From Phycisphaerae bacterium (GTDB taxonomy: Bacteria > Planctomycetota > Phycisphaerae > Phycisphaerales > SM1A02): a stretch of DNA of 17,700 nt. The position numbers and the translations under genes were made by a program. This document shows, one piece after another, positions 3,833 through 17,682 of this stretch; within the stretch, counting starts at the first letter, position 1; every line of letters begins with the position of its first letter. The notes beneath the pieces were generated by a model. The model ran no database searches. It was not told the origin of the DNA and saw only the letters and a list, made by a program, of their open reading frames with translations. The stretch spans positions 66,891-84,590 of the forward strand of contig NYSW01000010.1 in assembly GCA_002683195.1 (NCBI GenBank). Direction: 5' to 3'.

Positions 3833-3882
3833 CGATCGGCAGAAGTGGAGGATTCTCGATCCTGCAACCGATGAATGTTGCG

Positions 3883-3902
3883 CCGGCGAATGGATTTGCC
3901 GG
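3883..3902 (+). promoter_or_regulatory. Leader hairpin with (A)TGGA(T) loop upstream of the TPR gene
   Basis: CCGGCGAA (3883-3890) pairs with TTTGCCGG (3895-3902) with one G-U pair, leaving the tetraloop TGGA; with the top pair open the loop reads ATGGAT. A GGA in the loop of an isolated stem is the CsrA/RsmA site form. It is not at a ribosome binding site, so the GGA is not explained by translation initiation. The CsrA role is inferred. Confidence 0.45.
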
Positions 3903-3948
3903 GATCGTCACGCCCCAGCGGTCGGATTTCCTCGGAAACCGATCCCGG
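3899..3948 (+). repeat. Long-range inverted repeat with nested hairpin in the TPR gene leader
   Basis: CCGGGATCG (3899-3907) and CGATCCCGG (3940-3948) are perfect 9-base inverted arms. Between them, TCGG-A-TTTC (3922-3930) pairs with GAAA-CCGA (3935-3942) around CTCG. The nested stem shares 3940-3942 with the outer arm, and the outer arm shares 3899-3902 with the hairpin at 3883-3902, so these structures compete. Such mutually exclusive pairings are typical of a regulated leader, but no known riboswitch class is recognised. Confidence 0.4.
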
Positions 3949-3960
3949 TCAGGGCGGGTT

Positions 3961-3971
3961 GAGAGGATCTC
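3961..3971 (+). promoter_or_regulatory. Ribosome binding site of the TPR gene in an AGGAT-loop mini-hairpin
   Basis: GAG (3961-3963) pairs with CTC (3969-3971) around the loop AGGAT, directly before the GTG start at 3972. The Shine-Dalgarno AGAGGA (3962-3967) lies in the loop and 5' arm. The short stem alone is weak evidence; it counts because similar AGGAT loops recur at flgB and fliF. Confidence 0.4.
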
Positions 3972-6647
3972 GTGTTGGACGGTCTGCCTGAAAACGAGCC
4001 TGAGGCTCCCGTGAACCCCGATTCGGCCGTGGACTCTACGGTCGACGAGGCTGTCGCTGAAGATTCCAAATCCACGGGTCGTGGCTTGGGATCGGCATGG
4101 CAGTTCCCGCTGATCGGGATCTCTGTTCTGGCCATCCTTGCCGCCCTCGTCCAGCGAGGTGTCGATTCGACGCCGCCGCCCGATCCGGCCGCCGAGCTCG
4201 CCTTCGCTCGACAAGCAGTCGATGCGGGGGATTTGGAGCGGGCGGCGGGTCATCTGCTGGCGGCCGAGCCTCATCTGTCGGAAAACGCCTCGCTCCTTGG
4301 CGAGTATCACCTACTGGTGGCGGATCATCGGGCCAATTCCGTGGCCCCGGTGGTGACCGCGCCGGCCAATCAGGCCGCTCAGGTGTTCGAGGCGTACGAG
4401 CGGGCGGAACAGGATGGCGTCTCGCTTGATCTTCCTCGCCGCTTCGTGATGGCCAAGGCCTTGATGGCTGCGGGCGAGGATGTTTCGGCATTGAGGCGAC
4501 TCGATGCGGTTTCGGTCGAATTCGAAGCGAATCAGGACGCCGTCGGCCTGTCCGCCGTCAATCGGCTGCGGCATGATCTTCGGCGTCGGGCGATCGAGAC
4601 TGCGCTGGCCGCCGGGACGCCGGTGGCCGAGGTTCGGCGTGATGTCGATCTTCTGCTGGCGGAATCCCCGGGTCTGGAAATCGACGCCTGGGCCGTTCTG
4701 CTTGATGCTCGCCTGCGTCTCGCGGAAGGTTCGGCCGAGGGCCTCGTTCGAGATCTCGGCCTCGCGATGCATCGTCTTGAAGGCCGGGTCAGCGACCGTG
4801 AAGATCCGATGGCCTCCATCGACTGGCCCGGGCTCTGGGTCGTGCTCGGCCATGCCTATCGCGAAGAACTCGGGTTGCCCGATCGGTCCGCGGAGTGCTA
4901 CCGCATCGCGTTGGATCGATTGCGTGCAGTGGGACGAATCGCCGCGGAGGCATCGCTCGCCCTTGGTGATCTTGAAGTCGAACACGCGATTGGTGAAATG
5001 GGCGGAGGTATCTACGCCACCGACCTCGCCGAGGCGACGTCTCGTTTCGAAGCGGTTCTGGGGATCGGCGACGCGACGCTCGAACAGAAGATTCTCGCCG
5101 AGGCGGGCTTGATGTACGTGGATGTTCTGCGTCACGATCACCTCGCCGCGATCAAGGTCATGTCCAGGCTGGCGGCTCTGGTGGAGGCCACCGGCACCGC
5201 GGCGGGGCGGGCTCGCGACCGAGCGATTGAAATCGTCCTGAAGGGCGCGGATCGATCGGCGAAGTCCGCGTTCGAAGCGGAGCCCTTCGATGCCGTCGCG
5301 TTGCATGATGCCACTGCCGACTATGCGGTGTTCATTCGCCGTCACGGCGGAACGGCGGCCGATCGCCGGCGTGGCCTGGAGTTTCTTGCGACCGCCCGCG
5401 AGCGGGCTGCAGGCTTGATCCTCCGCCCTTATCTGGGCGGCGACGACCCGCGGGTCGAAAAAGCGGTGGAATTGGTGCCGGTCGAGGTCCGATTGGAGGC
5501 TGCGCGGCGATTTGCGGCGGCGGCCGAGGCCATGGATGAAGTCGAGCGAGAGCTCGATGGCGATGACCGGGATCGTTTTCTGGTGCTCTGGCGGGCGGCC
5601 ACGTTGCACGACAAGGCCGGGGCGGTTCAGCCGGCGCTCGCCAGGTACGTTCGGTTCGTCGAGAGCCAGTCGCCGGAGGCGAGGCTCTGGCCGGAGGCGG
5701 TCTATCGGGTGGCCGCGGCGCATCACTCGCTGCGATCGCTGCTTGATGCGGAAAACTGGTACCGAAGATTGATCGAGCAGATGGGATCCGCCCGCGACGA
5801 AGTCAGTGAATTCACGACTCGAGCCAAGGTCGGACTGGCTCGGGTCCTGATGGAGCTCGGCGGTGAATCGGCCGTCCCCGAAGCGGAGTCGCTCCTGAAT
5901 CACGTGCTCTCCGGCACGGCGCGGGATGCGATCGAACCTCGGGTGCCTGAATATCGACTCGCCTTGCTCCAGTTGGTCCGGTTGCTCGGGGAAAACGCAC
6001 GCTGGCAGGAGCAGGCCGGGCGAGGCGACGAGTGGCTCGAACGGTATCCCGGTGATCCTCGCTGGGGCGAATTGGCGGCTCGGACCGGGGCCGCCTTGCT
6101 GAGGCATGCCGATGAAATCCGACGGCTGGCGAACACCGAGGCTGCGGTCAACCCCTCGTTGACTTCGGCGGTCGAAGAGGAGCGGTTGCGTGCCCTCTCG
6201 CTGGCCGGATTCCGGCTTGAAGATGCCATTCGAGATCTTGGCGGCCGGACGGCGGCGGGTCTCGATCCGCTGGAATCGCGACTTCTGCGGTCCGCCTACC
6301 TGCATCGTGGAATCGTGGCGGATGATCGCGGCGATCATGCCGCGGCCGTCCGATTGCATCGGGATACCGAGCAGCGATTCGCGGGAGAGCCGGTGGCCAT
6401 CGCCGCCCTCATCTGCATGGCGGACGTCGCGGACCGGGCCGGTGACCGCAAGGTCGCGGCCGAAGCGACCCGACGTGCTCGAAAACGTCTGCAACATCTC
6501 CATCGTGAATCACCGGGGCTGGCCTCGCCGATCGAATCGTTGGGACCGGAATTGTTCATCGGTGCGGGCGAAGAGACCTTGAGCCGCTGGCTTTCGGCCT
6601 TCCCCCCCGGGGTCGGCATCGCGGTGGGCGTGGAGGATCAGCCATGA
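3972..6647 (+). CDS. Large membrane-anchored TPR-type helical-repeat protein
   Basis: 891 residues from a GTG start with AGAGGA just upstream; no ATG lies before the membrane helix. The acidic N-terminus (1-40) is followed by one transmembrane segment (about 43-61, FPLIGISVLAILAALV), then about 830 residues of soluble alpha-helical sequence rich in Ala, Leu, Glu and Arg. TPR-like units recur: AELAFARQAVDAGDLERAAGHLLAAEP (near 74-100), YREELGLPDRSAECYRIALDRL (near 297-318), VYRVAAAHHSLRSLLDAENWYRRLIE (near 577-602) and YLHRGIVADDRGDHAAAVRLHRDTEQRF near the C-terminus. With few Lys N-terminal to the helix, the repeats are probably periplasmic, though topology is uncertain. TPR proteins act as scaffolds. 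Its stop overlaps the FlgN-like start (ATGA at 6644) and that gene overlaps the kinase, tying it to the flagellar regulon. Specific function unknown. Confidence 0.8.
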   Translation: MLDGLPENEPEAPVNPDSAVDSTVDEAVAEDSKSTGRGLGSAWQFPLIGISVLAILAALVQRGVDSTPPPDPAAELAFARQAVDAGDLERAAGHLLAAEPHLSENASLLGEYHLLVADHRANSVAPVVTAPANQAAQVFEAYERAEQDGVSLDLPRRFVMAKALMAAGEDVSALRRLDAVSVEFEANQDAVGLSAVNRLRHDLRRRAIETALAAGTPVAEVRRDVDLLLAESPGLEIDAWAVLLDARLRLAEGSAEGLVRDLGLAMHRLEGRVSDREDPMASIDWPGLWVVLGHAYREELGLPDRSAECYRIALDRLRAVGRIAAEASLALGDLEVEHAIGEMGGGIYATDLAEATSRFEAVLGIGDATLEQKILAEAGLMYVDVLRHDHLAAIKVMSRLAALVEATGTAAGRARDRAIEIVLKGADRSAKSAFEAEPFDAVALHDATADYAVFIRRHGGTAADRRRGLEFLATARERAAGLILRPYLGGDDPRVEKAVELVPVEVRLEAARRFAAAAEAMDEVERELDGDDRDRFLVLWRAATLHDKAGAVQPALARYVRFVESQSPEARLWPEAVYRVAAAHHSLRSLLDAENWYRRLIEQMGSARDEVSEFTTRAKVGLARVLMELGGESAVPEAESLLNHVLSGTARDAIEPRVPEYRLALLQLVRLLGENARWQEQAGRGDEWLERYPGDPRWGELAARTGAALLRHADEIRRLANTEAAVNPSLTSAVEEERLRALSLAGFRLEDAIRDLGGRTAAGLDPLESRLLRSAYLHRGIVADDRGDHAAAVRLHRDTEQRFAGEPVAIAALICMADVADRAGDRKVAAEATRRARKRLQHLHRESPGLASPIESLGPELFIGAGEETLSRWLSAFPPGVGIAVGVEDQP

Positions 6648-7132
6648 GTGACCCTGTCCGGAACACGTCGGCATCCGACGAAGCGGTCGACCGGGTGATC
6701 TCCCGGCTTCGGACCCGGGTCGCATTGCTGGGCGAGCTCGACGCGGTGACCCGACGTCGGAGCGCGGCGATTTCGGATGACCGCCTCGATGCGATCGCCC
6801 GGCTGGGTGAGGCTCGCCAGGGGATCGTGGAGCGACTGCTCGCCACCTCGATCGATCTCGAATTCGCCGCACGCGAAGCGGCGGGCTCCGCCTCGCCGGA
6901 AGCCATGCGGCTGGTGGGAGAGGCGACGACCTTGCTCGCCGGCATCGAAGAAGCGGATCGGCAGGACGAGGCTCGGCTGCGGGCGACCGGTGAACGGGTC
7001 CGGCGTGAAATCGAGCAGGTCTCTCGGGCCGACCGGGCCGGTCGCGCCTATCGAGGATCGACCGGAGCCGGATTCAGCGGCCCGACGACCAGAACGAGCC
7101 TCGACGGCTCGAGAACGGAGCGCACCGGATGA
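6644..7132 (+). CDS. flgN: FlgN-like flagellar export chaperone (probable)
   Basis: 162 residues. Residues 12-130 form long amphipathic helices with regularly spaced Leu/Ile/Val and charged residues (VDRVISRLRTRVALLGELDA, then IARLGEARQGIVERLLATSI), the organisation of FlgN, which keeps hook-associated proteins unfolded for export. The disordered tail (AYRGS, then FSGPTTRTS) recalls the Gly/Arg-rich tails of FlgN-like proteins. Family members are typically 130-160 residues. The start overlaps the TPR gene stop as ATGA with GGAGGA 6 bases upstream, and the stop overlaps the kinase start the same way, so the three proteins are co-translated. FlgN sequences diverge strongly and a generic coiled-coil protein is possible; the flagellar context supports the call. 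Confidence 0.55.
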   Translation: MSDPVRNTSASDEAVDRVISRLRTRVALLGELDAVTRRRSAAISDDRLDAIARLGEARQGIVERLLATSIDLEFAAREAAGSASPEAMRLVGEATTLLAGIEEADRQDEARLRATGERVRREIEQVSRADRAGRAYRGSTGAGFSGPTTRTSLDGSRTERTG

Positions 7133-8163
7133 GTGTTCTTCCTTCCATCGATCCCGCGACCCTCACCGCGGGACGCGGCCCGAGCATCGACGCGGCTGAA
7201 TTCGCGGAGCTCGTCCGAGCCTTCAATGAAGTCACGGCGAGACTCGAGTCGACCCATGGCTCGCTCCAGCGAGAGGTCGGCTCCCTCAAGAAGGAGCTCG
7301 CCGATGCGCAGGCTCGACTTCGCCGCTCCCGTCAACTCGCGGCCCTGGGCGAGATGGCCGCCGGCATCGCGCATGAGATTCGAAATCCTCTGGGGGCGAT
7401 CGGCCTCACGCTTGAAGCCCTGACCGAGGATCTTCAAGGGCGTCCCGAGCAGCTGGAGCTTTGCGGCCGGGTCTCGCGGGCGGTTGGGCGACTTGACGGA
7501 ATCGTCGGAGACGTGCTGGCATTCGCCCGGGACACCCGGGTGCGTCCGGAGGCGACTTCCGTGCAGAGCCCGGTGCTGGCGGCGCTCGCCGCCACCGAGG
7601 ATCTCATCGAGCGCCACGACATCGATGTGGATCTGGAACTGGATGAAGCGGCCTTCGCGGAGATCGATGCCTCGTTGCTCGAGCAGGCGTTGTTGAATCT
7701 CATGCGGAACGCCTGTGAAGCGATGTGCTCGACCTCGGCCCCTCATCGTCTGGTGGTCCGGCTTTCGTCGGGTGAACTTCGTGACCCCGAGGCCGGTCGC
7801 ATCGAGCATGCGATGATCGAGATCGTGGATACGGGGCCCGGGATTCCGAGCGACGTGCGGCAGAGAATGTTCAATCCATTCTTCACCACCAGAGCGGAAG
7901 GCACCGGGCTGGGGCTGGCCATCGTGCATCGGATCGTCGATGCCCATGGTGGTCGGCTCGACGTGGAATCCGGCGGTTCAGGTACCTCGATCCGAGTCTC
8001 GCTCCCGGTGGTTTTCCGGGGAGAGGGAGTCGAAGCGGGTGAAGAGGCCGGCCAGGGACTCGGAGACGTCGTACGTCGTCGGGTTCGGGACAACGCCGGT
8101 ACGCGGAATGAAGCCGGAGCCGATTTGGGCTCCGGGGAGGAAGGCGATCGCGGAGCGGCTTGA
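7129..8163 (+). CDS. Cytoplasmic sensor histidine kinase (FlgS/FlrB/FleS type)
   Basis: 344 residues. The N-terminal 65 residues are coiled coil (FAELVRAFNEVTARLE, VGSLKKELADAQARL). The HisKA domain carries LAALGEMAAGIAHEIRNPLGAI with phospho-acceptor His82. The HATPase domain has the N box (LNLMRNACEA, Asn194), G1 DTGPGIP (234-240), F box FNPFFTTR (248-255) and G2 GTGLGLAI (258-265), so all catalytic motifs are intact. There is no membrane segment and no PAS domain, so it probably senses an internal cue, perhaps assembly of the export gate as proposed for FlgS of epsilonproteobacteria. A 48-residue Gly/Glu/Arg-rich tail (297-344) follows the usual end of the fold and looks disordered. It starts at an ATGA overlap with the FlgN-like gene, and its partner regulator follows after 64 bases. 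Confidence 0.88.
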   Translation: MSVLPSIDPATLTAGRGPSIDAAEFAELVRAFNEVTARLESTHGSLQREVGSLKKELADAQARLRRSRQLAALGEMAAGIAHEIRNPLGAIGLTLEALTEDLQGRPEQLELCGRVSRAVGRLDGIVGDVLAFARDTRVRPEATSVQSPVLAALAATEDLIERHDIDVDLELDEAAFAEIDASLLEQALLNLMRNACEAMCSTSAPHRLVVRLSSGELRDPEAGRIEHAMIEIVDTGPGIPSDVRQRMFNPFFTTRAEGTGLGLAIVHRIVDAHGGRLDVESGGSGTSIRVSLPVVFRGEGVEAGEEAGQGLGDVVRRRVRDNAGTRNEAGADLGSGEEGDRGAA

Positions 8164-8200
8164 GCCGGCTTCGCGGGTGGATTCATTGATTCGAAACGAG

Positions 8201-8214
8201 CGGCATGGATGCCG
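8201..8214 (+). promoter_or_regulatory. ATGGAT-loop hairpin before the response regulator gene
   Basis: CGGC (8201-8204) pairs with GCCG (8211-8214) around the loop ATGGAT; the arms can extend to six bases if the loop tightens to two. It sits 2-3 bases before the Shine-Dalgarno GGAG (8217-8220) of the regulator in the 64-base gap after the kinase. A(N)GGA in a loop beside a ribosome binding site is the CsrA-type arrangement. The stem is short, so this is suggestive only. Confidence 0.38.
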
Positions 8215-8227
8215 ATGGAGCTCAGCT

Positions 8228-9721
<1,494 letters not shown>

Positions 9722-9743
9722 TTCGGTCGGGATGATCGTGATG

Positions 9744-9779
9744 GGCAGAAACGGCGCGGAGGATCGCGTCATTTCTGCC
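9744..9779 (+). promoter_or_regulatory. Long GAGGAT-loop hairpin in the flgB leader
   Basis: GGCAGAAA (9744-9751) pairs with TTTCTGCC (9772-9779). Inside, CGCG (9755-9758) pairs with CGCG (9765-9768), and G9753-C9770 plus G9754-T9769 bridge them, so only one C/A mismatch breaks a 14-pair stem. The loop is GAGGAT. No T-run follows, which argues against an intrinsic terminator of the regulator gene, though an attenuator is possible. The loop GGA lies 58 bases from the equivalent GGA in the flgB ribosome-site hairpin, and both share CGGAGGATC. This fits a first CsrA site paired with a second at the ribosome binding site. Confidence 0.6.
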
Positions 9780-9793
9780 TCGAATTCAAACCA

Positions 9794-9810
9794 GGCGCCG
9801 ATTCGGCGCC
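9794..9810 (+). repeat. GC-rich palindrome between the two flgB leader hairpins
   Basis: GGCGCCGA (9794-9801) and TCGGCGCC (9803-9810) are perfect inverted arms around a single T, giving a 6-7 bp stem in RNA or a symmetric DNA operator. It sits exactly between the GAGGAT hairpin and the ribosome-site hairpin, so the flgB leader can hold three consecutive stems with almost no unpaired sequence. Confidence 0.5.
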
Positions 9811-9812
9811 CT

Positions 9813-9827
9813 TCCGGAGGATCCGGA
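9813..9827 (+). promoter_or_regulatory. flgB ribosome binding site presented in an AGGAT-loop hairpin
   Basis: TCCGG (9813-9817) pairs with CCGGA (9823-9827) around the loop AGGAT, one base before the flgB ATG. The Shine-Dalgarno GGAGGA (9816-9821) is partly in the 5' arm and partly in the loop. The form matches CsrA/RsmA sites that repress translation by covering the ribosome site; the stem itself could also limit initiation. Confidence 0.55.
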
Positions 9828-9828
9828 C

Positions 9829-10281
9829 ATGCAGGATGGTGGCGTCTCCAATTCAGGAGCCCTTCCTTATCTCCAGCGGATGATGCAGTTCTCGTGGCAG
9901 CGGAACACGTTGCTTTCGGATGCCGCCGCCAATCTCGACACCCCCGGATATCAGCCGGTCGATGTCTCGGTTTCCGAATTCCAGGGGGCCATGAAGGCCG
10001 CTCAGGTTCGAGAACAGGGGATCGGGGCCGGAATCATCACGCCGGTGGTTCGAGGTCACGGGGCGTTCGGGGACACGGATGGGATTCGCTTCGAAGCCGA
10101 TGGGATCCGGCTCGCGCCGGATCCGGCTCGCCAGAATCTCACCTTCCATGACGGAAATGACCGCAATTTGGAACGGATCATGCAGAACCTGGCAGAGAAC
10201 GCCTTGGCGTTCAGGCTCGCCAGCGAACTCTTCCGCAAGGAACATGACATCCTTCGGTCGGCAATTCGTGAACGACCTTGA
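9829..10281 (+). CDS. flgB: Flagellar proximal rod protein FlgB
   Basis: 150 residues, close to the usual 130-150. Proximal rod subunit exported by the flagellar type III apparatus and assembled above the MS ring with FliE, FlgC, FlgF and FlgG. The family motif near the N-terminus reads NLDTPGYQ (consensus NIANxDTPGYK), preceded by the helix LPYLQRMMQFSWQRNTLLSDAA. The C-terminal helix (NLERIMQNLAENALAFRLASELF, then LRSAIRERP) is the expected partner in the axial coiled coil. The ATG at 9829 has GGAGGA 7 bases upstream. It heads the flgB-flgC-fliE order seen in many bacteria, and its leader is unusually structured, suggesting control of the whole cluster here. Confidence 0.93.
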   Translation: MQDGGVSNSGALPYLQRMMQFSWQRNTLLSDAAANLDTPGYQPVDVSVSEFQGAMKAAQVREQGIGAGIITPVVRGHGAFGDTDGIRFEADGIRLAPDPARQNLTFHDGNDRNLERIMQNLAENALAFRLASELFRKEHDILRSAIRERP

Positions 10282-10315
10282 CACCTCGGGACTTCTCCGG
10301 GACGGAATCTGACTC

Positions 10316-10720
10316 ATGGCCATCTACGGCGCTTTCGACATCTCGGGCAGCGGACTTCAGGCCCAGCGGGTCCGGATGGATGCGATCAGTGCGAACCTCG
10401 CCAATCGCAATACCCCCGGCTTTCAGGTCAAGACGGTCGAATTCGCCCCTGGCGACCCGGCCACCGGCAATCCTCTCGGAGTCCATGTGTCGGCGATCGA
10501 AGCCGATCTCAATGCGGCGTTCATCGAGACCGCCACGACGTTTGGTTCCTCCGCCGATCTCGCCGACGGCAAGAAGGACGGCCTGGCTCAGATGCCCGAT
10601 TACAGCGATGTGCGGGCGATGGCCGACGGAATCGAGGCTCTTCGGGCTTATCAAGCCAACATTCAGGCGATCGATACGACTCGGTCGATGATTGACTCGG
10701 CGATACGCGTACTTGCTTGA
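10316..10720 (+). CDS. flgC: Flagellar proximal rod protein FlgC
   Basis: 134 residues, normal length. Second proximal rod subunit, exported and assembled next to FlgB. The N-terminal family signature is clear: FDISGSGLQAQRVRMDAIS followed by ANLANRNTPGFQ (consensus NiANanTtG). The C-terminal segment YSDVRAMADGIEALRAYQAN with the terminal helix IQAIDTTRSMIDSAIRVLA matches the conserved axial-protein end (consensus NVNvveEMvnmisAsRsYqaNv). It lies 34 bases after flgB with GGACGGA 9 bases before the ATG, and 23 bases before fliE, so the three are one transcript. A weak TCCG-GGA-CGGA hairpin at 10296-10306 overlaps its ribosome site. Confidence 0.94.
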   Translation: MAIYGAFDISGSGLQAQRVRMDAISANLANRNTPGFQVKTVEFAPGDPATGNPLGVHVSAIEADLNAAFIETATTFGSSADLADGKKDGLAQMPDYSDVRAMADGIEALRAYQANIQAIDTTRSMIDSAIRVLA

Positions 10721-10721
10721 C

Positions 10722-10737
10722 CACCTGACGGACGGTG
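10722..10737 (+). promoter_or_regulatory. ACGGA-loop hairpin over the fliE ribosome site (weak)
   Basis: CACC (10722-10725) pairs with GGTG (10734-10737) around TGACGGAC, which contains ACGGA. It covers the only Shine-Dalgarno-like bases before the fliE ATG at 10744. Four pairs with an eight-base loop are not stable alone; it is listed because of the same loop motif at neighbouring genes. Confidence 0.3.
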
Positions 10738-10743
10738 TACCCC

Positions 10744-11079
10744 ATGAGCGATCCACTCGGCCCACTCAATCAACTCGGCTCCCAGGGCCTTGGTCGCATC
10801 CAAGGCATCAAGGGTGGCCAGCTCGGTGCCCCCGGGACCGGCTCTTCCACGGGCGCCGGGGAGGGTGATTTCAAGTCGTCCCTCATGAAGCAGATCGAGC
10901 AGGTCAACCAGCTCCAGCAGGATGCGGAGCAGGCCAAGATCGGGGCCGCCACCGGCGACGCCTCGCTCGAACAGGTGATCACCGCGACCGAGACCGCCGA
11001 CACCGCGTTCCGCATGCTTCTTGCGGTTCGCAACAAACTCGTCGATGCATACGACGAGGTGAAGAACATCCGCGTCTGA
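10744..11079 (+). CDS. fliE: Flagellar hook-basal body protein FliE
   Basis: 111 residues from the ATG at 10744; a GTG at 10735 in frame is possible, but it would use up the only ribosome-site-like bases. FliE links the MS ring to the rod and is among the first exported axial proteins. The conserved C-terminal half is clear: FKSSLMKQIEQVNQLQQDAE (about residues 43-62), the ATGDASLEQVITATETADTAF core and the ending LLAVRNKLVDAYDEVKNIRV, matching the family end (consensus vrNKlveAYqEImrMqv). The N-terminal 40 residues are Gly/Ser-rich and probably unstructured. It follows flgC by 23 bases and precedes fliF by 131 bases that fold into hairpins. Confidence 0.92.
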   Translation: MSDPLGPLNQLGSQGLGRIQGIKGGQLGAPGTGSSTGAGEGDFKSSLMKQIEQVNQLQQDAEQAKIGAATGDASLEQVITATETADTAFRMLLAVRNKLVDAYDEVKNIRV

Positions 11080-11088
11080 TCTTCGAAT

Positions 11089-11111
11089 CGCCTTCGGACG
11101 GACCGAAGGCG
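11089..11111 (+). promoter_or_regulatory. ACGGA-loop hairpin, first element of the fliF leader
   Basis: CGCCTTCGG (11089-11097) pairs perfectly over nine bases with CCGAAGGCG (11103-11111), leaving the five-base loop ACGGA. It begins 9 bases after the fliE stop. Without a following T-run it is a poor terminator. The loop is exactly A-N-GGA, the CsrA/RsmA core, on a perfect stem. Confidence 0.6.
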
Positions 11112-11129
11112 TGAGAAGGACGAGGCGTT

Positions 11130-11155
11130 CCCGCAAAGTCAGGATGACTCGCGGG
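11130..11155 (+). promoter_or_regulatory. AGGAT-loop hairpin, second element of the fliF leader
   Basis: CCCGC (11130-11134) pairs with GCGGG (11151-11155), and AGTC (11137-11140) pairs with GACT (11146-11149), with an AA/C internal loop. The apical loop is AGGAT; the local sequence TCAGGATGA is close to the known CsrA consensus CARGGAUG. The GGA lies 42 bases after the one in the preceding hairpin, a distance that one CsrA dimer could bridge. Confidence 0.6.
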
Positions 11156-11188
11156 GGCATCAAAGCCTCGGAACGCTCATCGCACGAT

Positions 11189-11208
11189 GGACGGCATGGA
11201 GGCCATCC
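11189..11208 (+). promoter_or_regulatory. fliF ribosome binding site in an ATGGAG-loop hairpin
   Basis: GGC (11193-11195) pairs with GCC (11202-11204) around ATGGAG, and GGA (11189-11191) pairs with TCC (11206-11208) across a single C/A mismatch. The Shine-Dalgarno GGAGG (11198-11202) sits mostly in the loop, 8 bases before the GTG at 11211. It is the third A(N)GGA loop in this leader. Confidence 0.42.
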
Positions 11209-11210
11209 CC

Positions 11211-12884
11211 GTGACAGAACGAATTCGTCAATCCCTGCAGGATGTCCAACGCCGTCTTTCGGCCATGGACTCGTCGGCTCGACTTCTGGTCGGGGCGATC
11301 GCGATCATCCTGGTGATGGGGCTGTTTCTCGTCTCCCAGTACGCGGTCTCGCCGGCGATGGCCACCATCAAGGTGGAGTCCGACAAGGTTCTGCTGGCCA
11401 TGCAGAGCATCCGGACCGAGGGGTACGCGGTGGAAGATGCCGGGAGCGGCATGCTCCGGGTACCCGCCGTCAAGAAGCGTGCGATCCTCGCCCTGCTCGA
11501 GCAGGATGGCTACACCGAGGCTCCGGCCGGCCAGGAACCGCTGTCCACCGAGTCTGGGGGGTGGTCGTCGGCCGCGGAAATCGCGATCCAACAGCGAGCA
11601 TTCCGGATTCGAACCGCGGAAAACTCCATCCGCATGATGGCCGGAGTCGAGAACGTCCGGATCAGCCTTTCCGGGGGCGCCGGCCGATTGCTGGCGATCC
11701 GTGGGGTGCAGAAGCCCACCGCGACCGTGAGTGTCGGCATGAAGTCGGGGCCGGTGGGCTCCGAACTCGCGGAGTCGTTCGCGATCGTCGCGGTCTCGGC
11801 GGAAACCGGGTTGGACATCGAGAACGTGACCGTCATCGACACCGGGACCGGTGTCAATCATCGTTTCGACGAAGCAGGGTCCGGTGGCGGGCGTGATTAT
11901 CTTTCCTCGGTCAAGAGCTGGGAACGCAAGCTGACCGCGGAATTCGCAAGGTTGGTTCGAGTGTCCTTCCCGCGGGCCGAGGTCGTGGTCAATGCTCAGT
12001 GTCTGGTCGCCGAAGTCGCCCAGGTTGAAAGCAACCCCGGGAAGCCGGTCAAGACGGACACGTTCGTGGAGACCGACGAGACCTCGACTCCCCTGGCCGC
12101 CGGGCGAGGTGGCCAGCCGGGATTCAACTCCAACAGTGGGGTGGGGTCCGCCTCGGTCAATGCCGTTCGCGGTGGTGATCGGGCGACGCGTGAGTCCGAG
12201 CGGGTGGTCAGTGACGCGAAGTTCCCACTCACCGAGCGACGTACGGATGAAATCGCGAACTATCCGGTCAAGGTGGCGGCATCCCTGGTCATCCCGACGC
12301 AGGAAGTGGAAGCGCTGCTGCGGGCGGAACTGGGAGAAGAGGCGGAGATCGGCCTCGAGCAGATCAACGCCCGGATCCTGATCATCAAGTCGGACATTCG
12401 AAAGATCCTCGTTCCTTTGGTGGACAGTTCCGAATTCCGCAATGGAACCACGGGTGAAGTCGAGATCGCGGTCATGCCGTTCGCGTCCTGGACGCCGCCG
12501 GTCGCCTTCAGCGATGGTGGGGGGCTGGCAGACTCGATCGGCGAGTTGACGGGTACCGATCTGGCTTCATCGATCAAGAACGCGGGGCTGGTCGGGCTGG
12601 CCCTGTTCTCCCTCGCCATGATGTTCATGATGGTGCGTCGGACCGGCGGGACCGAAGTCATGCCCACGGCCGAGGAACTGGCCGGTGTGCCGCCGGTTCT
12701 TGATGATGACGATGTCAACCTGGTCGGCGAGGCGGAAGAGGCCGTTCCGGCGATGGAAGGTCTCGAGCTCGATGATGAGGACCTTCGTCGCAAGCAGATG
12801 CTTGATCAATTGAACCAGTTGATCAAGAAGGAACCCTCGGAGGTCGCCTCCCTGCTTCGTCGCTGGATGCGCACCGAGTCGTAA
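11211..12884 (+). CDS. fliF: Flagellar MS-ring protein FliF
   Basis: 557 residues from the GTG at 11211, chosen because GGAGG lies 8 bases upstream; ATGs at 11187 and 11196 would add up to 8 residues with no ribosome site. FliF forms the MS ring in the inner membrane, the base for rod, export gate and FliG. Seen: first transmembrane helix at about 24-43 (LLVGAIAIILVMGLFLVS), the YscJ/FliF ring-building domain with MMAGVENVRISLS, a second domain with WERKLTAEFARLV, a Gly/Ser/Thr-rich loop (NSNSGVGSASVNAVRGGDR), a second helix at about 458-474 and the C-terminal FliG-binding tail ending KEPSEVASLLRRWMRTES. Overall length is in the normal 520-580 range. A 108-base gap separates it from fliG. Confidence 0.94.
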   Translation: MTERIRQSLQDVQRRLSAMDSSARLLVGAIAIILVMGLFLVSQYAVSPAMATIKVESDKVLLAMQSIRTEGYAVEDAGSGMLRVPAVKKRAILALLEQDGYTEAPAGQEPLSTESGGWSSAAEIAIQQRAFRIRTAENSIRMMAGVENVRISLSGGAGRLLAIRGVQKPTATVSVGMKSGPVGSELAESFAIVAVSAETGLDIENVTVIDTGTGVNHRFDEAGSGGGRDYLSSVKSWERKLTAEFARLVRVSFPRAEVVVNAQCLVAEVAQVESNPGKPVKTDTFVETDETSTPLAAGRGGQPGFNSNSGVGSASVNAVRGGDRATRESERVVSDAKFPLTERRTDEIANYPVKVAASLVIPTQEVEALLRAELGEEAEIGLEQINARILIIKSDIRKILVPLVDSSEFRNGTTGEVEIAVMPFASWTPPVAFSDGGGLADSIGELTGTDLASSIKNAGLVGLALFSLAMMFMMVRRTGGTEVMPTAEELAGVPPVLDDDDVNLVGEAEEAVPAMEGLELDDEDLRRKQMLDQLNQLIKKEPSEVASLLRRWMRTES

Positions 12885-12894
12885 TCGATCTTTG

Positions 12895-12930
12895 GAGGAG
12901 TCGGATGGCGATCGGCCTGACCGACTCCTC
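12895..12930 (+). repeat. Inverted repeat in the fliF-fliG gap
   Basis: GAGGAGTCGG (12895-12904) and CCGACTCCTC (12921-12930) pair perfectly over ten bases, with GGC/GCC (12907-12909, 12915-12917) pairing inside around GATCG. It starts 11 bases after the fliF stop. There is no T-run, so it is more likely an mRNA processing or stability element, or a partial attenuator, than a full terminator. The rest of the gap is pyrimidine-rich and holds CGAGTTTC twice (12944-12951, 12965-12972). Confidence 0.5.
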
Positions 12931-12992
12931 ACTGGTGTCCTTCCGAGTTTCGTTCCCTTCGTTTCGAGTTTCATCCGGAGTTCCGACCGACC

Positions 12993-14033
12993 ATGAGCAT
13001 CCGTCCCGGCCAGAAACTCCCCGACACGATCGAAGAACTCGACGGCGTGGCTCGCAGTGCGGTGCTTCTGCTGCTGCTTGAACCCGAGGCCGCAGGGGCC
13101 ATCCTCCGGGAACTCCCGACCGAAGCGGTCGAAGAGGTCACTCGGGCGTTGGCATCGCTGGGAGACGTTCCGCAGAATCTGGGCGAGGGCATCGTCTCCG
13201 AGTTCTACAACCTGACCATGGCCCAGGGTTGGGCTCGAGAGGGCGGGCTCGACTACGCCACTCGCCTCCTCAAGGATTCGCTCGAGGGTGGAGTGGCGGA
13301 CCGGGTGATCGCGCAGATCCAGACTCAGGTTCAGCGAACACCGTTCTCCTTTCTCCAGAAGGCTGAAACCGACAACCTGCTCACCTTCATCCAGGATGAA
13401 CACCCGCAGACCATCGCCTTGATCGTCAGTCACCTGCCGCATCACAAGGCATCGGAGGTTCTCGGGGGACTTCCGGAAGAACGACAGATCGAAGTCGTCC
13501 GACGAGTGGCCAACATGGAGCAGACCAACCCCGAGGTCATCCGTGAAGTCGAAATGGGGCTCGAGGCCCGACTCAGTTCCATGATCATGCATTCCTCGGA
13601 GAAGGTCGGCGGCGTCAACACCGTCGCGGAGATCCTCAATCTCTGCGATCGAAACACCGAGAAATCGATCATGGAGGGAGTGGAAGGTGAAGACCCCGAA
13701 CTGGTCGAGGAGATTCGACGACTGATGTTCGTCTTCGAAGACATTCGCATGGTCGACGACAAGGCCATTCAGCGTCTGATGAAGGAACTCGACAACGGTG
13801 AAGTGGCCCTCGCCTTGAAGATGGCCTCGGACGAGCTCAAGGAGAAGTTCCTCTCCAACGTCTCCTCCCGGGGCGCGGAAGTCATTCGCGAAGACATGGA
13901 ATTCATGGGTCCCGTCCGAGTGAGCGACGTCGAAGCGGCGCAGCAGCGGATCGTGGACATCGTCCGTCGGCTCGAGGATTCCGGCGAGATCGTGATCAAC
14001 GGCCGCGGCGGCGGCGGTGATGTCGTGGTCTGA
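12993..14033 (+). CDS. fliG: Flagellar motor switch protein FliG
   Basis: 346 residues, slightly longer than the usual 330-340. FliG binds FliF and carries the torque helix facing the MotAB stator. Seen: N-terminal domain (VARSAVLLLLLEPEAAGAIL), the EHPQ motif (136-139) and GGVNTVAEILN (206-216), then the MFVFEDI hinge (245-251) and the torque region. Charged positions matching E. coli K264, R281, D288, D289 and R297 are Lys276, Arg293, Glu300, Asp301 and Arg309, so torque chemistry looks intact. The extra C-terminal end is Gly-rich (NGRGGGGDVVV). The closest ribosome-site bases GGAG (12977-12980) are 12 from the ATG, a rather long spacing. The fliH start follows the stop by 17 bases. Confidence 0.96.
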   Translation: MSIRPGQKLPDTIEELDGVARSAVLLLLLEPEAAGAILRELPTEAVEEVTRALASLGDVPQNLGEGIVSEFYNLTMAQGWAREGGLDYATRLLKDSLEGGVADRVIAQIQTQVQRTPFSFLQKAETDNLLTFIQDEHPQTIALIVSHLPHHKASEVLGGLPEERQIEVVRRVANMEQTNPEVIREVEMGLEARLSSMIMHSSEKVGGVNTVAEILNLCDRNTEKSIMEGVEGEDPELVEEIRRLMFVFEDIRMVDDKAIQRLMKELDNGEVALALKMASDELKEKFLSNVSSRGAEVIREDMEFMGPVRVSDVEAAQQRIVDIVRRLEDSGEIVINGRGGGGDVVV

Positions 14034-14050
14034 GCCCAACGGAGATCGTC

Positions 14051-15010
14051 GTGCCTCTCATCAAGAACAATCGAGCCCGCGAACTGGTCAACGGTGCCGT
14101 GGTCATGAACCTCGGTGACGTCCGCAAGGAAGCGGATGGCATTCTCGACGCCGCCCGGCGGGAGGCCGCGGGGATCGTGGAAGCCGCCCGGATCGAAGCG
14201 GAACGGCTTTCCTCGGGTGCGGCCGAGCGCGGATACCAGGAAGGCCGGACACTCGGTGAGGATGAAGGTCGGGTCGCGGGGCGCGAGGAAGGCACTCTTC
14301 AAGGGGCTCGGGTCGCGGAAGCCGCGATCGCCGAGAGGCTTGGTGGGATCGCGGATGGTTGGAACCAGGCGCTCGATGCGTATCTCGCCGGACGAGAAGT
14401 CCTCCGTGAGGAGAGTCGTCGAGATCTCCTTCGGCTTTCCATCGCGATTGCAGAGCGAATTCTGGGCCGATTGCCGGACCATGATCCGACGCTGGTGATC
14501 GACCAGGTCGAAGGTGCCGTGGAGATGCTCGCGGGTGCCACCCGGCTGCGAATCCAGGTTCATCCCGACGACCTTCCGATCATCGAACAGCATTTCCGCG
14601 AGGCGAGTTCGAACATCCTCTCGGCCCGGGACTCGGACATCGAGTTTGGCACCGACGAAGACATCGTTCGCGGTGGTTGCGTGGTTTCGGCCGGCGACGG
14701 CGAGGTCGACGCCCGGCTCGATGGCCAGATCTCACGAATCGTGCAGGGGCTCTTCCCCGAGTTGTCCGAGACTCCCGAGCCGCCGACCGTCACGGAGGTT
14801 TCCGACGCGGTCGGCCTCGACTCCGACGCGGTGCCCGTGGTCGATGCTCCGGATCATCCGATGCCCGTTCCGCCTTCGGTCCCGACTCCGGCCGCGGGGG
14901 GGGAGTCCACGGCCACGGCGGGTGGTGATCCTGCGGTCGACTCCTGGGACGACATCGTTCCCGCCGAAGAAAATCGTTCCCTCGAAGACCCGGAGGCAGC
15001 TTCGGAATGA
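14051..15010 (+). CDS. fliH: Flagellar export ATPase regulator FliH
   Basis: 319 residues from a GTG at 14051 (GGAG-like bases about 7 upstream), longer than the usual 220-250. FliH dimers tether FliI to the C-ring and export gate. The Ala/Glu-rich helical region contains an exact glycine-every-fourth-residue run at 61, 65, 69, 73, 77, 81 and 85, the GxxxG repeat known from FliH. The C-terminal domain (about 115-235) has SIAIAERIL, the strand LRIQVHPDDL and the signature GGCVVSAGDGEVDARLDGQI (208-227). Beyond it, about 80 residues form an acidic, Pro/Ala-rich tail (ETPEPPTVTEV through LEDPEAASE) that is not part of the normal fold and explains the extra length. Its stop overlaps fliI (ATGA at 15007). 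Confidence 0.9.
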   Translation: MPLIKNNRARELVNGAVVMNLGDVRKEADGILDAARREAAGIVEAARIEAERLSSGAAERGYQEGRTLGEDEGRVAGREEGTLQGARVAEAAIAERLGGIADGWNQALDAYLAGREVLREESRRDLLRLSIAIAERILGRLPDHDPTLVIDQVEGAVEMLAGATRLRIQVHPDDLPIIEQHFREASSNILSARDSDIEFGTDEDIVRGGCVVSAGDGEVDARLDGQISRIVQGLFPELSETPEPPTVTEVSDAVGLDSDAVPVVDAPDHPMPVPPSVPTPAAGGESTATAGGDPAVDSWDDIVPAEENRSLEDPEAASE

Positions 15011-16365
15011 CCACCTTCGCCCGAACGATCGACGCGTTGGACGGTTTTGAAGCCCGTTCCATCGTTGGAACCGTGGATGCGGTGCGCGGCATGACGGTGC
15101 TGGTCCGCCGGCTCCGAGTCCCCATCGGTTCGGTGGTTCGCATCGAAGGGACTTCGCGAACCCGGCAGGTCGTCCGGGGCGAGGTGATCGGTTTCGATGC
15201 CGCTCGCGCCATCGTCATGTTGCTGGGAGGTTCCAACGGGACCGGTCCCGGCGATCGGGTCTTTCTGGAGCGGGTCAGCGATTCGATCATGGTGGGTGAT
15301 TCCTGGCTCGGCCGGGTGCTCGATGGACTCGGTCGACCGATCGACGGGGGGCCGGTACCAACCGGGCTGGAAGCCCGGCCTCTCTTCCCGCCGGTGGTCA
15401 ATCCGATGACCCGCGGCATCATTGATGAACCGCTCGCGACCGGAGTCCGGGCCATCGACGGCATCACCACGCTCGGCAAGGGACAGCGGATCGGAATCTT
15501 TGCGGGGCCCGGGGTCGGCAAGAGCACGTTGATGGCCTCGGTCGCCCGCGGCACCAGCGCCGATGTGAATGTGATCGCCCTGGTCGGTGAACGCGGGCGC
15601 GAGGTGAAGGAGTTCATCGTCGACGCATTGGGAAGTGAAGGCCTGGCTCGTTCCGTGGTGGTGGTCGCGACCGGCGATGAAAGTCCGCTGCTTCGAGTCC
15701 GGGCGATGGCGGCGGCGATCACGGCCGCCGAACACTTTCGAGATTCCGGGCGCAATGTGATGTTGATGGTCGACTCCATCACCCGTTTCGCCCAGGCCCA
15801 GAGGCAGATCGGTCTGGCGGCGGGTGAACAGCCTGCCACCAAGGGGTACACCCCGAGTGTCTTCGCCCTGCTTCCTCAATTGCTGGAACGAGCGGGAAGC
15901 ATCGAGGGCGGGGGATCGATCACCGGCATCTACACCGTGCTGGTCGAAGGCGATGATCTGACCGAACCGATCGCCGATGCCGCCAAGGGCATTCTCGACG
16001 GGCACGTGGTGCTCAGCCGAAAGTTCGCGAATCGGGGGCACTTCCCCGCGATCGATCCGCTGGATTCGATTTCGCGGGTGGCGGATCAGGTCTCCGATCC
16101 CAATCACGTGGTGGCTCGACGAAGACTTCTGGAACTGCTGGCGGCTCATCGTGAGAGCGAGGAGTTGATCAACATCGGCGCTTACGCCCCCGGTTCCAAT
16201 CCGATGACCGATGTCGCGATCGCACTCAAGCCGGCGATCGACACCTATCTGCGGCAGGAGCGAGATGAACGAGCGGAATTTCCCGTGACCTGCCGCGCTC
16301 TCTGTGAGATCGCGGCCGAGAGTGAACGACTGCGGGTCGCCGCGGTGGCCGCCAAGGGCGGCTGA
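15007..16365 (+). CDS. fliI: Flagellum-specific ATPase FliI
   Basis: 452 residues, normal length. Hexameric ATPase, related to F1 beta, that unloads chaperone-substrate complexes and powers export together with the proton motive force. Seen: Walker A GPGVGKST (167-174), catalytic glutamate region GERGREV (194-200, Glu195), Walker B VMLMVDS (251-257, Asp256), SITRFAQAQRQIGLAAGEQP, then YTVLVEGDD and LSRKFANRGHFPAIDPLDSISR, all typical of FliI/YscN rather than F-type subunits. The N-terminal beta-barrel is present (GTVDAVRGMTVLVRRL). The ATG overlaps the fliH stop, and GGAGG lies 10 bases upstream. The fliJ start follows by 37 bases. Confidence 0.96.
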   Translation: MTTFARTIDALDGFEARSIVGTVDAVRGMTVLVRRLRVPIGSVVRIEGTSRTRQVVRGEVIGFDAARAIVMLLGGSNGTGPGDRVFLERVSDSIMVGDSWLGRVLDGLGRPIDGGPVPTGLEARPLFPPVVNPMTRGIIDEPLATGVRAIDGITTLGKGQRIGIFAGPGVGKSTLMASVARGTSADVNVIALVGERGREVKEFIVDALGSEGLARSVVVVATGDESPLLRVRAMAAAITAAEHFRDSGRNVMLMVDSITRFAQAQRQIGLAAGEQPATKGYTPSVFALLPQLLERAGSIEGGGSITGIYTVLVEGDDLTEPIADAAKGILDGHVVLSRKFANRGHFPAIDPLDSISRVADQVSDPNHVVARRRLLELLAAHRESEELINIGAYAPGSNPMTDVAIALKPAIDTYLRQERDERAEFPVTCRALCEIAAESERLRVAAVAAKGG

Positions 16366-16402
16366 GGCCGACCTCCGTCCGGATTGATCGAGAGACCGAA
16401 CC

Positions 16403-16888
16403 ATGCCCCGATTCCGATTCGAACTCCAGGCCGTGCTTGACGCCCGTAAACGGGCGGAGGATCTCCGTCGACGTGAGGTCGCGACTCTGGAGATGGAACG
16501 TCGCGACCTGGAGGCCGGAATTCGTGGGCGACAGCAGTCGATCGTCGACTCGCGCGAAGAGACCCGCGAAGGCCTGGTCGGGGCGATCCATCCTGATCGA
16601 CTACGCGCGTCGGCCAACGCATCCCTGGCGATGATGCGCGATGCCCAGAGATCGGTGCTCGAACTTGCGGGCATCCATCGTCGGCTGGAGACCGCTCGCG
16701 GCACGTTGAAGGAAGCCTCCCGTGATCGACGGGCGATCGAACTGGTCCGAGAACGACGATTTGAAACCTGGAAAAGCGAGATCGAACGGCGAGAACAATC
16801 CGCCCTCGATGAGATCGCCACGATTCGAGGGGCTCGTCGAGTCCGAGAGAGGGACGCCTTTGCGGGCGGAACCGAGGAAAACCACTGA
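16403..16888 (+). CDS. fliJ: Flagellar export protein FliJ
   Basis: 161 residues, within the family's 145-160 range. FliJ is a coiled-coil stalk, similar to the F1 gamma subunit, that sits in the FliI ring and contacts FlhA. The start FRFELQAVLDARKRAEDLRRREVA is the conserved N-terminus, where FliJ proteins usually begin with F-F/L-L-V-L-R/K patterns. Nearly all residues are predicted long helix, rich in Arg, Glu and Ala, with one break near LVGAIHPDRL (about 58-67). No strong ribosome site is seen (GAGAGA about 9 upstream). The stop shares one base with the next ATG (TGATG at 16886-16890), so the pair is coupled. Identification rests on the coiled coil, length and position after fliI. Confidence 0.85.
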   Translation: MPRFRFELQAVLDARKRAEDLRRREVATLEMERRDLEAGIRGRQQSIVDSREETREGLVGAIHPDRLRASANASLAMMRDAQRSVLELAGIHRRLETARGTLKEASRDRRAIELVRERRFETWKSEIERREQSALDEIATIRGARRVRERDAFAGGTEENH

Positions 16889-17682
16889 TGCGCACCATCT
16901 GGAGCACCGTCGCGTTCTTCGCGGTCGTCAATCTTCTGGCCTTGTTGCTGGCTGCCGGGTGGCTGTACCAGACGGACCGGATCGATCGTGCTCGCGTCGA
17001 GCAGGTTCGAACGTTGTTCCGACTGCCGATCGCCGAGGAAAAAGCGATCCTGCAGGCGAGTCTGGACGCCGAGGCAGCGGCTTCGATCGCGGCGGCGGAT
17101 GATTCTGCGGTTCGCTGGTCGGCGATTCCCGTGACCAACCTGGCCACCGCGGATGCCGCCGAGCGAACTCGGGATCTCGGACGCGAGACGAGTGCGGCCC
17201 TCCAGTTGGAGGCCGAAGCGATCGTGGCCCGTATCGAAGCCGATCATGCGGCCCGCATGGCGGAAGTCGCCGCCGAACGACGGTCGCTGGAAGCCGATCA
17301 GCAGCGATTCCGCGAGTTGACCGAACGAACCCGGGACGCGGATTTCGCAAAGACCGTGACGGATCTCGAAGAGATGAAGATGGACACGGCGTTCAGCATC
17401 ATTCAGACCTGGTGGGCGAACGATGAGCATCGCACGCTGGTGATCGACGTGCTGGCCTCCATGGATACGGCACGCCGAAATTCGCTGCTCGGCGAGTTCG
17501 TGGATGTCGGGCGGCAGGATGTGGCAGCGGAATTGCAGTTGGCACTCCGTGACCGGACCGCGATGGCCGGATCCAGAACGGAGTCTGCCGATGCCCAGCT
17601 CGACGACAAACAAGCTTCCCGTGGTGGGAATCGACCTGTTCAAGGCCCCGGCGGGTCGCGGAACGGGGTCGGCACCTCCTGA
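16888..17682 (+). CDS. MotE-like protein (flagellar stator-chaperone family, probable)
   Basis: 264 residues. One N-terminal membrane helix (about 7-27, VAFFAVVNLLALLLAAGWLY), a periplasmic-type Ala/Glu-rich linker, a coiled coil (about 100-148) and a compact helical segment, DFAKTVTDLEEMKMDTAFSI through ARRNSLLGEFV (about 152-205). That layout and the pattern of EM-K-M-DTA, LVIDVL-SMD-ARR resemble MotE/MgtE-N-like proteins, which lie between fliJ and fliK in many flagellar operons and act as chaperones for MotC. Here the name rests on layout and position, not on strong identity. GAGGAAAA precedes the ATG. The last about 35 residues are low-complexity Gly/Ser/Arg and overlap the next gene by 92 bases, so the true end of folded protein is near residue 228. 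Confidence 0.65.
   Translation: MRTIWSTVAFFAVVNLLALLLAAGWLYQTDRIDRARVEQVRTLFRLPIAEEKAILQASLDAEAAASIAAADDSAVRWSAIPVTNLATADAAERTRDLGRETSAALQLEAEAIVARIEADHAARMAEVAAERRSLEADQQRFRELTERTRDADFAKTVTDLEEMKMDTAFSIIQTWWANDEHRTLVIDVLASMDTARRNSLLGEFVDVGRQDVAAELQLALRDRTAMAGSRTESADAQLDDKQASRGGNRPVQGPGGSRNGVGTS
17574..17587 (+). promoter_or_regulatory. ACGGAG-loop hairpin over the probable fliK ribosome site
   Basis: CAGA (17574-17577) pairs with TCTG (17584-17587) around ACGGAG, which contains the Shine-Dalgarno GGAG (17580-17583) 7 bases before the ATG at 17591. It lies inside the 3' end of the MotE-like gene, so it must satisfy coding as well. The stem is short; the loop motif matches the fliF and flgB leaders. 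Confidence 0.35.

Follow-up and report, generated by a model that had tools for sequence, protein, structure and literature searches.

A conserved candidate CsrA regulon centred on the fliF and TPR leaders of a Phycisphaerae flagellar block

The DNA analysed here (the window, 17,700 nucleotides (nt) from a Phycisphaerae bacterium) carries a flagellar block in the order RDD protein, TPR protein, flgN-like gene, histidine kinase, sigma54-type regulator, flgB, flgC, fliE, fliF, fliG, fliH, fliI, fliJ, an unnamed gene and fliK. The names TPR, flgN and fliK were taken from the original prediction made on this DNA and gained no match here, and the name flgB rests on NCBIfam matches below the cut-off. 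That prediction suggested that ten hairpins with A(N)GGA loops, spread over the leaders of the block, make up one regulon of the RNA-binding protein CsrA/RsmA. The present analysis points to a real, conserved candidate CsrA regulon that is smaller than the one proposed, with the TPR and fliF leaders at its core. The core features, all on the plus strand and with loops in square brackets, are as follows.

3883 to 3902, plus strand: upstream site of the TPR leader, arms CCGGCGAA and UUUGCCGG around the loop UGGA, with the GGA at -80
3961 to 3971, plus strand: ribosome-site hairpin of the TPR gene, GAGA[GGA]UCUC, at -7 and directly 5' of the start GTG 3972
3972 to 6647, plus strand: TPR-protein gene, 891 amino acids (aa), start GTG 3972, heading a chain joined by 4-nt overlaps (TPR, flgN-like, kinase)
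11130 to 11155, plus strand: upstream site of the fliF leader, AGUCA[GGA]UGACU within a CCCGC/GCGGG stem, core CAGGAUG at 11140-11146
11189 to 11208, plus strand: ribosome-site hairpin of fliF, GGC[AUGGAG]GCC (11193-11204), over the Shine-Dalgarno (SD) sequence GGAGG at 11198-11202
11211 to 12884, plus strand: fliF, likely true start GTG 11211, with SD and GTG conserved in close relatives

The start of fliF is most likely GTG 11211 and not ATG 11187, because a conserved GGAGG is followed 8 nt later by a GTG; the hairpin at 11189-11208 would therefore cover the ribosome site.

All ten hairpins are present where the original prediction had placed them and each folds alone as it described; those at 3961, 8201, 10722 and 17574 are lost in the minimum-energy fold when 20 nt of context is added on each side, and so must be considered weak. 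A mechanical scan (stem of at least 5 base pairs (bp) including G-U, at least two G-C pairs, loop of 3-8 nt with A(N)GGA) was then applied to nine intergenic leaders of the window and to their dinucleotide shuffles. Seven hairpins were counted, compared with 0.83 in the shuffles, and 0 of 1000 shuffles reached seven. Five further scan settings gave 9 versus 1.69, 4 versus 0.19, 4 versus 0.40, 9 versus 1.78 and 3 versus 0.15, the number of shuffles as high being 0, 0, 1, 0 and 1 in 1000. GGA ranked first among the 64 loop trinucleotides in the window leaders, and a looser scan (stem of at least 4 bp, loop of 3-10 nt) returned 16.8 matches per kb in the leaders versus 2.9 per kb in the rest of the window. 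The original prediction had proposed the comparison with shuffled leaders as a check; the enrichment is present in the window and also in orthologous leaders.

Orthologous leaders were drawn from 52 related loci, comprising 12 loci and 40 fetched stretches, the latter taken from 40 of the 97 genomes that gave a FliF match in the relatives' family set of 181 genomes (of unstated completeness). Ten of these loci are close (FliF 45-55% identical; the eight nearest records are 45-52% identical to the window FliF) and 42 are more distant, here called far. The gene order of the block is the same in all 52, as far as contigs reach and genes were found. Start codons in the relatives were set by a script rule, and some look wrong (for example the TPR starts of L009, L083 and L103). 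The leaders were scanned for A(N)GGA loops with a stem of at least 5 bp and a loop of 3-8 nt, the flgN leader lying outside the scan. In the close group the counts were 15 versus 1.1 in shuffles for TPR, 10 versus 1.6 for fliF and 5 versus 0.55 for flgB (0 of 100 shuffles as high in each case), and 3 versus 0.56 for the regulator, a count reached by 2 of 100 shuffles. The far group gave 29 versus 3.6 for TPR, 30 versus 4.75 for fliF and 10 versus 1.1 for the regulator, again with 0 of 100 shuffles as high. TPR, fliF and the regulator thus showed an excess in both groups, and that of flgB was confined to the close group. The leaders of flgC, fliE, fliG, fliH, fliI, fliJ and the kinase contained no such hairpin in the close group and were at or near chance in the far group, the highest being fliH (3 versus 1.1, with 9 of 100 shuffles as high); the earlier statement that the leaders of fliG, fliH, fliI, fliJ and the kinase are free of the pattern agrees with these counts.

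Coding sequence gave 115 A(N)GGA hairpins versus 119 in one shuffle for the close group and 355 versus 260 for the far group. A further control set was formed from 420 other leaders of the nearest relative, on 39 stretches totalling 769 kb, with genes called by a simple script; 48 of them had any match, five had at least two and one had a pair of upstream and ribosome-site hairpins. When the ten hairpins were followed individually through the relatives, four proved well conserved, namely the TPR pair (3883 and 3961) and the fliF pair (11130 and 11189). Two are partly conserved in close loci (8201 in 3/7, 9813 in 4/8), and those at 9744, 10722, 11089 and 17574 are, by eye, not conserved with A(N)GGA.

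In the fliF leader the upstream site and the ribosome-site hairpin occur together in 11/11 close loci, with a GGA-to-GGA distance of 56-57 nt in every one; in the window the upstream GGA lies 69 nt 5' of the start codon. Of 53 loci, 52 have the element GGC[A(N)GGA(G/A)]GCC close to the fliF start; among 502 starts of eleven further genes of these loci it occurs at 4. Its loops read AUGGAG in 45 loci, ACGGAG in two, AAGGAG in one, AUGGAA in one and AGGAG in three. The loop rule described for CsrA/RsmE, in which A and GGA are fixed and N is free or missing (PMC4005645, PMC7652899; papers here and below are cited for the part of their text that was available), is therefore obeyed in 52/53 loci. 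The form bound with high affinity is a stem carrying an ANGGAX hexaloop (PMC4005645). The upstream core CAGGAUG occurs in 33 of the 53 fliF leaders versus 11 of 502 leaders of other genes, the expectation from coding sequence being 0.011 per leader. Among the 35 far loci with the loop AUGGA, 30 have it in a different frame from the assigned fliF start, so that a coding need is an unlikely cause. By eye, several relatives have an extra hairpin of ACGGAG type in the middle of the fliF leader, where the window reads AUCAAA.

The TPR leader is likewise built of two sites. An A(N)GGA hairpin at the upstream place and the ribosome-site hairpin are each present, and present together, in 7/7 close loci, 60-73 nt apart, and 19 of 33 loci contain the exact sequence GAGAGGAUCUC within the part of the TPR start region that was searched. 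The TPR protein (3972-6647) is matched by no model of Pfam (E ≤ 0.001) or NCBIfam (E ≤ 0.01); a TPR protein occupies the same place in many relatives.

Next, the pairing of the upstream sites was assessed with an arm-swap test, in which every A(N)GGA at least 25 nt upstream was chosen without regard to structure and the flanking arms were exchanged between sites in 2000 rounds. Stems of at least 5 bp flanked 19 of 39 far TPR sites (4.8 after swapping) and 24 of 65 far fliF sites (8.5 after swapping), with 0 of 2000 rounds as high in both cases. The close group gave 7/14 for TPR (2 of 2000 rounds as high) and 9/24 for fliF (0 of 2000), and flgB, flgC, fliE, fliH and the kinase were not clearly above swapped arms. 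Covariation was then scored at fliF sites picked by the string CAGGAUG alone (32 of 33 sites, that of L003 being dropped as too near a contig end). The upstream helix scored 0.622 versus 0.256 in shuffles, with 76% versus 56% of cells paired (0 of 500 shuffles as high for each), and every slid version of the helix scored lower. TPR sites were picked by GAANGGA in 21 of 33 loci, including one at -191 in L081 that is probably not the true site. The TPR helix is the weaker of the two, with a score of 0.295 versus 0.186, 87.4% versus 82.6% of cells paired (0 of 500 shuffles) and both sides changed in 3/7 pairs. The compensatory changes in relatives that the original prediction had looked to are therefore present for the upstream TPR and fliF helices; the SD helices vary too little for such changes to show. 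Tallies of pairs at sites that had been picked by structure were left out of the evidence.

The proteins of the putative switch are widespread in the relatives' family set, where a csrA match was found in 177 of 181 genomes and a fliW match in 131. Both genes were found in nine of the first 12 relatives; in one genome where fliW was not found (G002), 194 nt separate the end of csrA1 from that of the contig. In eight of ten close genomes fliW, csrA1 and two flagellin genes are consecutive. In relatives CsrA1 keeps VHRKE, with the RNA-binding arginine R44, in 10/10 copies read and is 100-101 aa long in eight of them, the other two being 115 aa and lacking the first residue through a later start codon in the script. 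It aligns without gaps, R44 included, to the solved structure 1y00, which we take to be E. coli CsrA; the best solved relative by sequence is 5dmb chain D. A second, shorter CsrA paralogue (72-74 aa) occurs in 11 of the first 12 relatives and has VHRRE at the R44 place in 11/11 copies read. In addition, the leader of the second flagellin gene (fliC2) shows a two-site layout like those of TPR and fliF in 8/8 readable loci, one locus (L130) having been dropped as misplaced by the script; its sites are GCGGA[GGA]UCCG(C/U) and, at the ribosome site, a hairpin of the type (U/G)GUUC[ACGGA(A)]GGA(C/U). The fliC1 leader was also considered and not counted, as its conserved CACGGAGGAU in relatives has no clear GGA loop. 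Separately, the csrA2 leaders of L024, L026, L027 and L029-L032 contain, by eye, a CAGG-CAGGAGG-CCUG-like sequence around their own ribosome site, possibly an autoregulatory one.

Together, these patterns make it probable that the TPR gene and fliF are under CsrA-type binding and translational control, a judgement that leaves the FliW step aside. In each leader the upstream A(N)GGA hairpin would serve as the anchor for a CsrA dimer, which would reach the ribosome site and there block translation of the MS-ring protein FliF and of the TPR protein. Because 4-nt overlaps join the TPR, flgN-like and kinase genes, blocked TPR translation could also lower the kinase by coupling. CsrA would be released by FliW once flagellin is exported, as described for Bacillus; in relatives the fliW gene lies next to csrA and the flagellin genes. 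The window's own genome presumably carries csrA, and CsrA binding, repression and FliW control are likewise presumed for it. The arrangement suggests that flagellum building is controlled at the RNA level from the first ring onward. A more tentative proposal, possible and rather doubtful as it stands, is that the CsrA-FliW switch tops flagellar assembly by gating FliF, the TPR-kinase chain and a flagellin, so that unexported flagellin would decide on a new basal body, amounting to translational control of flagellar number.

Of the other explanations, the one that survives best is that a different RNA-binding factor reads these sites, or mainly the short CsrA paralogue acting independently of FliW, the latter part being compatible with CsrA-type control of TPR and fliF. 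The regular presence of the second CsrA type with its VHRRE sequence speaks for it, as does the finding of csrA of similar score in genomes with neither fliF nor fliW found (for example G019-G035). However, nothing in the results tells the two paralogues apart and the fliW-linked CsrA adjoins the flagellin genes; this explanation is regarded as somewhat unlikely.

A second possibility is that the hairpins only sequester the SD sequence, as intrinsic structures do in thermosensing for example, the loop GGA being no more than the ribosome site. The hairpins at 3961, 9813 and 11189 do sit on an SD sequence, and the SD zones of TPR and the regulator show an excess of paired arms (14/27 and 10/26). 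Yet the strongest structural signal comes from TPR and fliF sites at least 25 nt from the start, the need for an SD accounts for GGAG and not for the preceding A(N) or the flanking GGC/GCC found at nearly all fliF starts and hardly any others, and the loops keep the GGA unpaired instead of hiding it. Sequestration alone is therefore considered improbable.

Less likely still is a role for the inverted repeats at the DNA level, as operators or enhancer sites bound by the sigma54-type regulator. The block does encode such a regulator, and the sites of sigma54-type regulators are usually palindromic. A palindrome has no strand preference, however, whereas in the close group A(N)GGA hairpins were found on the sense strand only for TPR (15 sense, 0 antisense) and fliF (10 and 0), with 3 and 0 for the regulator and 5 and 1 for flgB; the far group gave 29 and 3 for TPR, 30 and 6 for fliF and 10 and 0 for the regulator. 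Moreover, the arms differ among genes and species with compensating changes while the loop core stays constant. For TPR and fliF the DNA-palindrome explanation was rejected on the basis of this strand test. Chance enrichment in GC-rich, GGA-rich leaders, which single matches in control leaders (48/420) and the four unconserved hairpins might seem to favour, is largely refuted for TPR and fliF by the shuffles, the arm swaps, the leaders of other genes and the covariation controls, and is given almost no weight.

Several observations weigh against CsrA control of TPR and fliF, or limit how far the evidence for it can be pressed. The A of A(N)GGA forms part of the loop-closing A-U pair in three of the window's four core hairpins, a pair that the known contact would need opened. 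The two TPR sites are 73 nt apart in the window (60-65 nt in six close relatives), more than the 10-63 nt that E. coli CsrA is quoted as bridging (PMC7652899). The exact CAGGAUG is missing from 20 of the 53 fliF leaders. The ribosome-site hairpins are short, the GGC/GCC pairs at fliF are invariant, and the fliF SD zone shows no excess of stems of at least 5 bp (5/51, 5.35 after swapping, 1328 of 2000 rounds as high); the fliF ribosome site therefore rests on conserved sequence. The number of fliF pairs changed on both sides (5/5) is not above shuffles (4.3; 193 of 500), and the shuffles leave relatedness in, so that related sequences can beat them without structure. Some background is also present in the controls: coding sites were paired slightly above swapped arms, at 184/2782 (7%) versus 152; the control leaders were themselves above one shuffle, at 53 versus 33 matches; and antisense matches exist in the far group, three for TPR (2.4 in shuffles) and six for fliF (2.6 in shuffles), with flgB there giving four sense and five antisense. 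Finally, of the 77 genomes where fliF was matched below 1e-20, fliW was found in 69, and it was also found in 62 of the other 104; no claim is made for co-occurrence of fliF and fliW, and the single FliF query may miss divergent fliF.

Reach was examined across the phylum in 40 of 154 more widely drawn genomes that had a FliF match. The strict fliF ribosome-site hairpin was found in nine of the 13 highest-scoring FliF loci taken (at least 355 bits) and in none of the other 27, and CAGGAUG, again to the detriment of the proposal, in 0/40 of these more distant loci; the strict element therefore stops short of more distant FliF loci. A(N)GGA hairpins of at least 5 bp numbered 24 versus 3.6 in shuffles over the same 40. 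In three distant loci (L199, L200 and L201) the fliF start codon itself lies inside a hairpin of the type UCCA(C/G)GGAUGGA.

The predicted arrangement can be compared with known systems. In glgC and hag, CsrA anchors upstream and covers the ribosome site, and the Bacillus subtilis hag leader of the CsrA-FliW-Hag switch has two CsrA sites, one over the SD, as do the TPR and fliF leaders here (PMC7652899). The relatives resemble B. subtilis further in having fliW-csrA next to flagellin genes and a fliC2 leader with the two-site layout; they are unlike it in having conserved sites also before fliF and before the TPR gene that heads the kinase chain, and in having two csrA paralogues. Campylobacter jejuni is alike in that many flagellar mRNAs bind CsrA, with AAGGA in a hairpin loop and two flaA sites 21 nt apart (PMC4894983). 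There, however, fliF was enriched 6.1- and 7.8-fold in the open reading frame, with no 5' untranslated region value listed in the available text, and flaA, flaG and flgI were among the strongest (PMC4894983), whereas the most conserved target here is the fliF leader. The fliF upstream core CAGGAUG is one form of the gammaproteobacterial CsrB repeat CAGGA(U/A/C)G (PMC7652899), although the sites here lie within mRNA leaders. An Rfam scan of the window gave no match at E ≤ 1, and CsrB-like RNAs were sought in no other way. That Planctomycetes may use FliW on CsrA has been suggested (PMC4682653), and sigma54-dependent csrA promoters have been described in Pirellula (PMC12316311). No description of CsrA sites in planctomycete flagellar genes was found in open-licence PMC papers. 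What is new here is a set of exact candidate sites in the RNA ahead of fliF and of the TPR gene, sites that are kept in many relatives and lie within reach of an ordinary gel shift; if the proposal is true, the known flagellin switch extends to the first ring of the flagellar motor.

The remaining features of the window, also on the plus strand, are as follows.

3868 to 3873, plus strand: sigma28-like -10 box CCGATG, 15 nt 5' of the TPR upstream hairpin, a possible promoter of the TPR leader
8201 to 8214, plus strand: regulator leader hairpin CGGCA[UGGA]UGCCG, GGA 21 nt 5' of the start 8228
8228 to 9721, plus strand: sigma54-type response regulator (NtrC/FlbD/FlgR-like) by Pfam, all NCBIfam matches shown being below the curated cut-off
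9744 to 9779, plus strand: flgB upstream hairpin with an AGGA loop
9813 to 9827, plus strand: flgB ribosome-site hairpin UCCGGA[GGA]UCCGGA
11089 to 11111, plus strand: hairpin after fliE with an ACGGA loop

The regulator hairpin is confined, in the close group, to the window, L073 and L002. In the window flgB has two sites, one of them over the ribosome site. The candidate sites in the regulator and flgB leaders are weaker or lineage-specific. Four hairpins were rejected as targets. That at 9744-9779 is not conserved as A(N)GGA in close relatives, where there is only a 4-bp one at -47 in L002, and that at 11089-11111 has no A(N)GGA loop at the same place. The fliE hairpin at 10722-10737 has no match in nine close loci, and the GTG start to which it would belong is doubtful, fliE most likely beginning at ATG 10744, as in relatives, and not at GTG 10735. 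At the fliK hairpin (17574-17587) seven of eight close relatives read CCGGAG without the A, and ACGGAG is found, by eye, in L073 only. The idea of one regulon is thus borne out by conservation for TPR and fliF and in part for the regulator and flgB, and falls away for fliE, fliK and the hairpins at 9744 and 11089; the CsrA interpretation is partly supported, holding for a core of targets and not for the whole list.

As for the sigma28-like box, 17 of the 25 TPR leaders with the upstream hairpin have a CCGATR sequence 11-18 nt 5' of it, compared with about 0.05 expected per 60 nt; the likeness is to what we take to be the sigma28 -10 consensus. The position of the box suggests that the TPR transcript would begin near the upstream hairpin. 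Within the same leader, the GGA at position 3850 may belong to a promoter rather than to an RNA element. A CCGATR box was also seen 7-43 nt 5' of the fliF upstream hairpin in 18 of 47 leaders. Among the 420 control leaders, the sole pair of A(N)GGA hairpins with one upstream and one at the ribosome site precedes L145:3911-7853 on the minus strand, presumably an SMC-like gene, as judged from its N-terminus.

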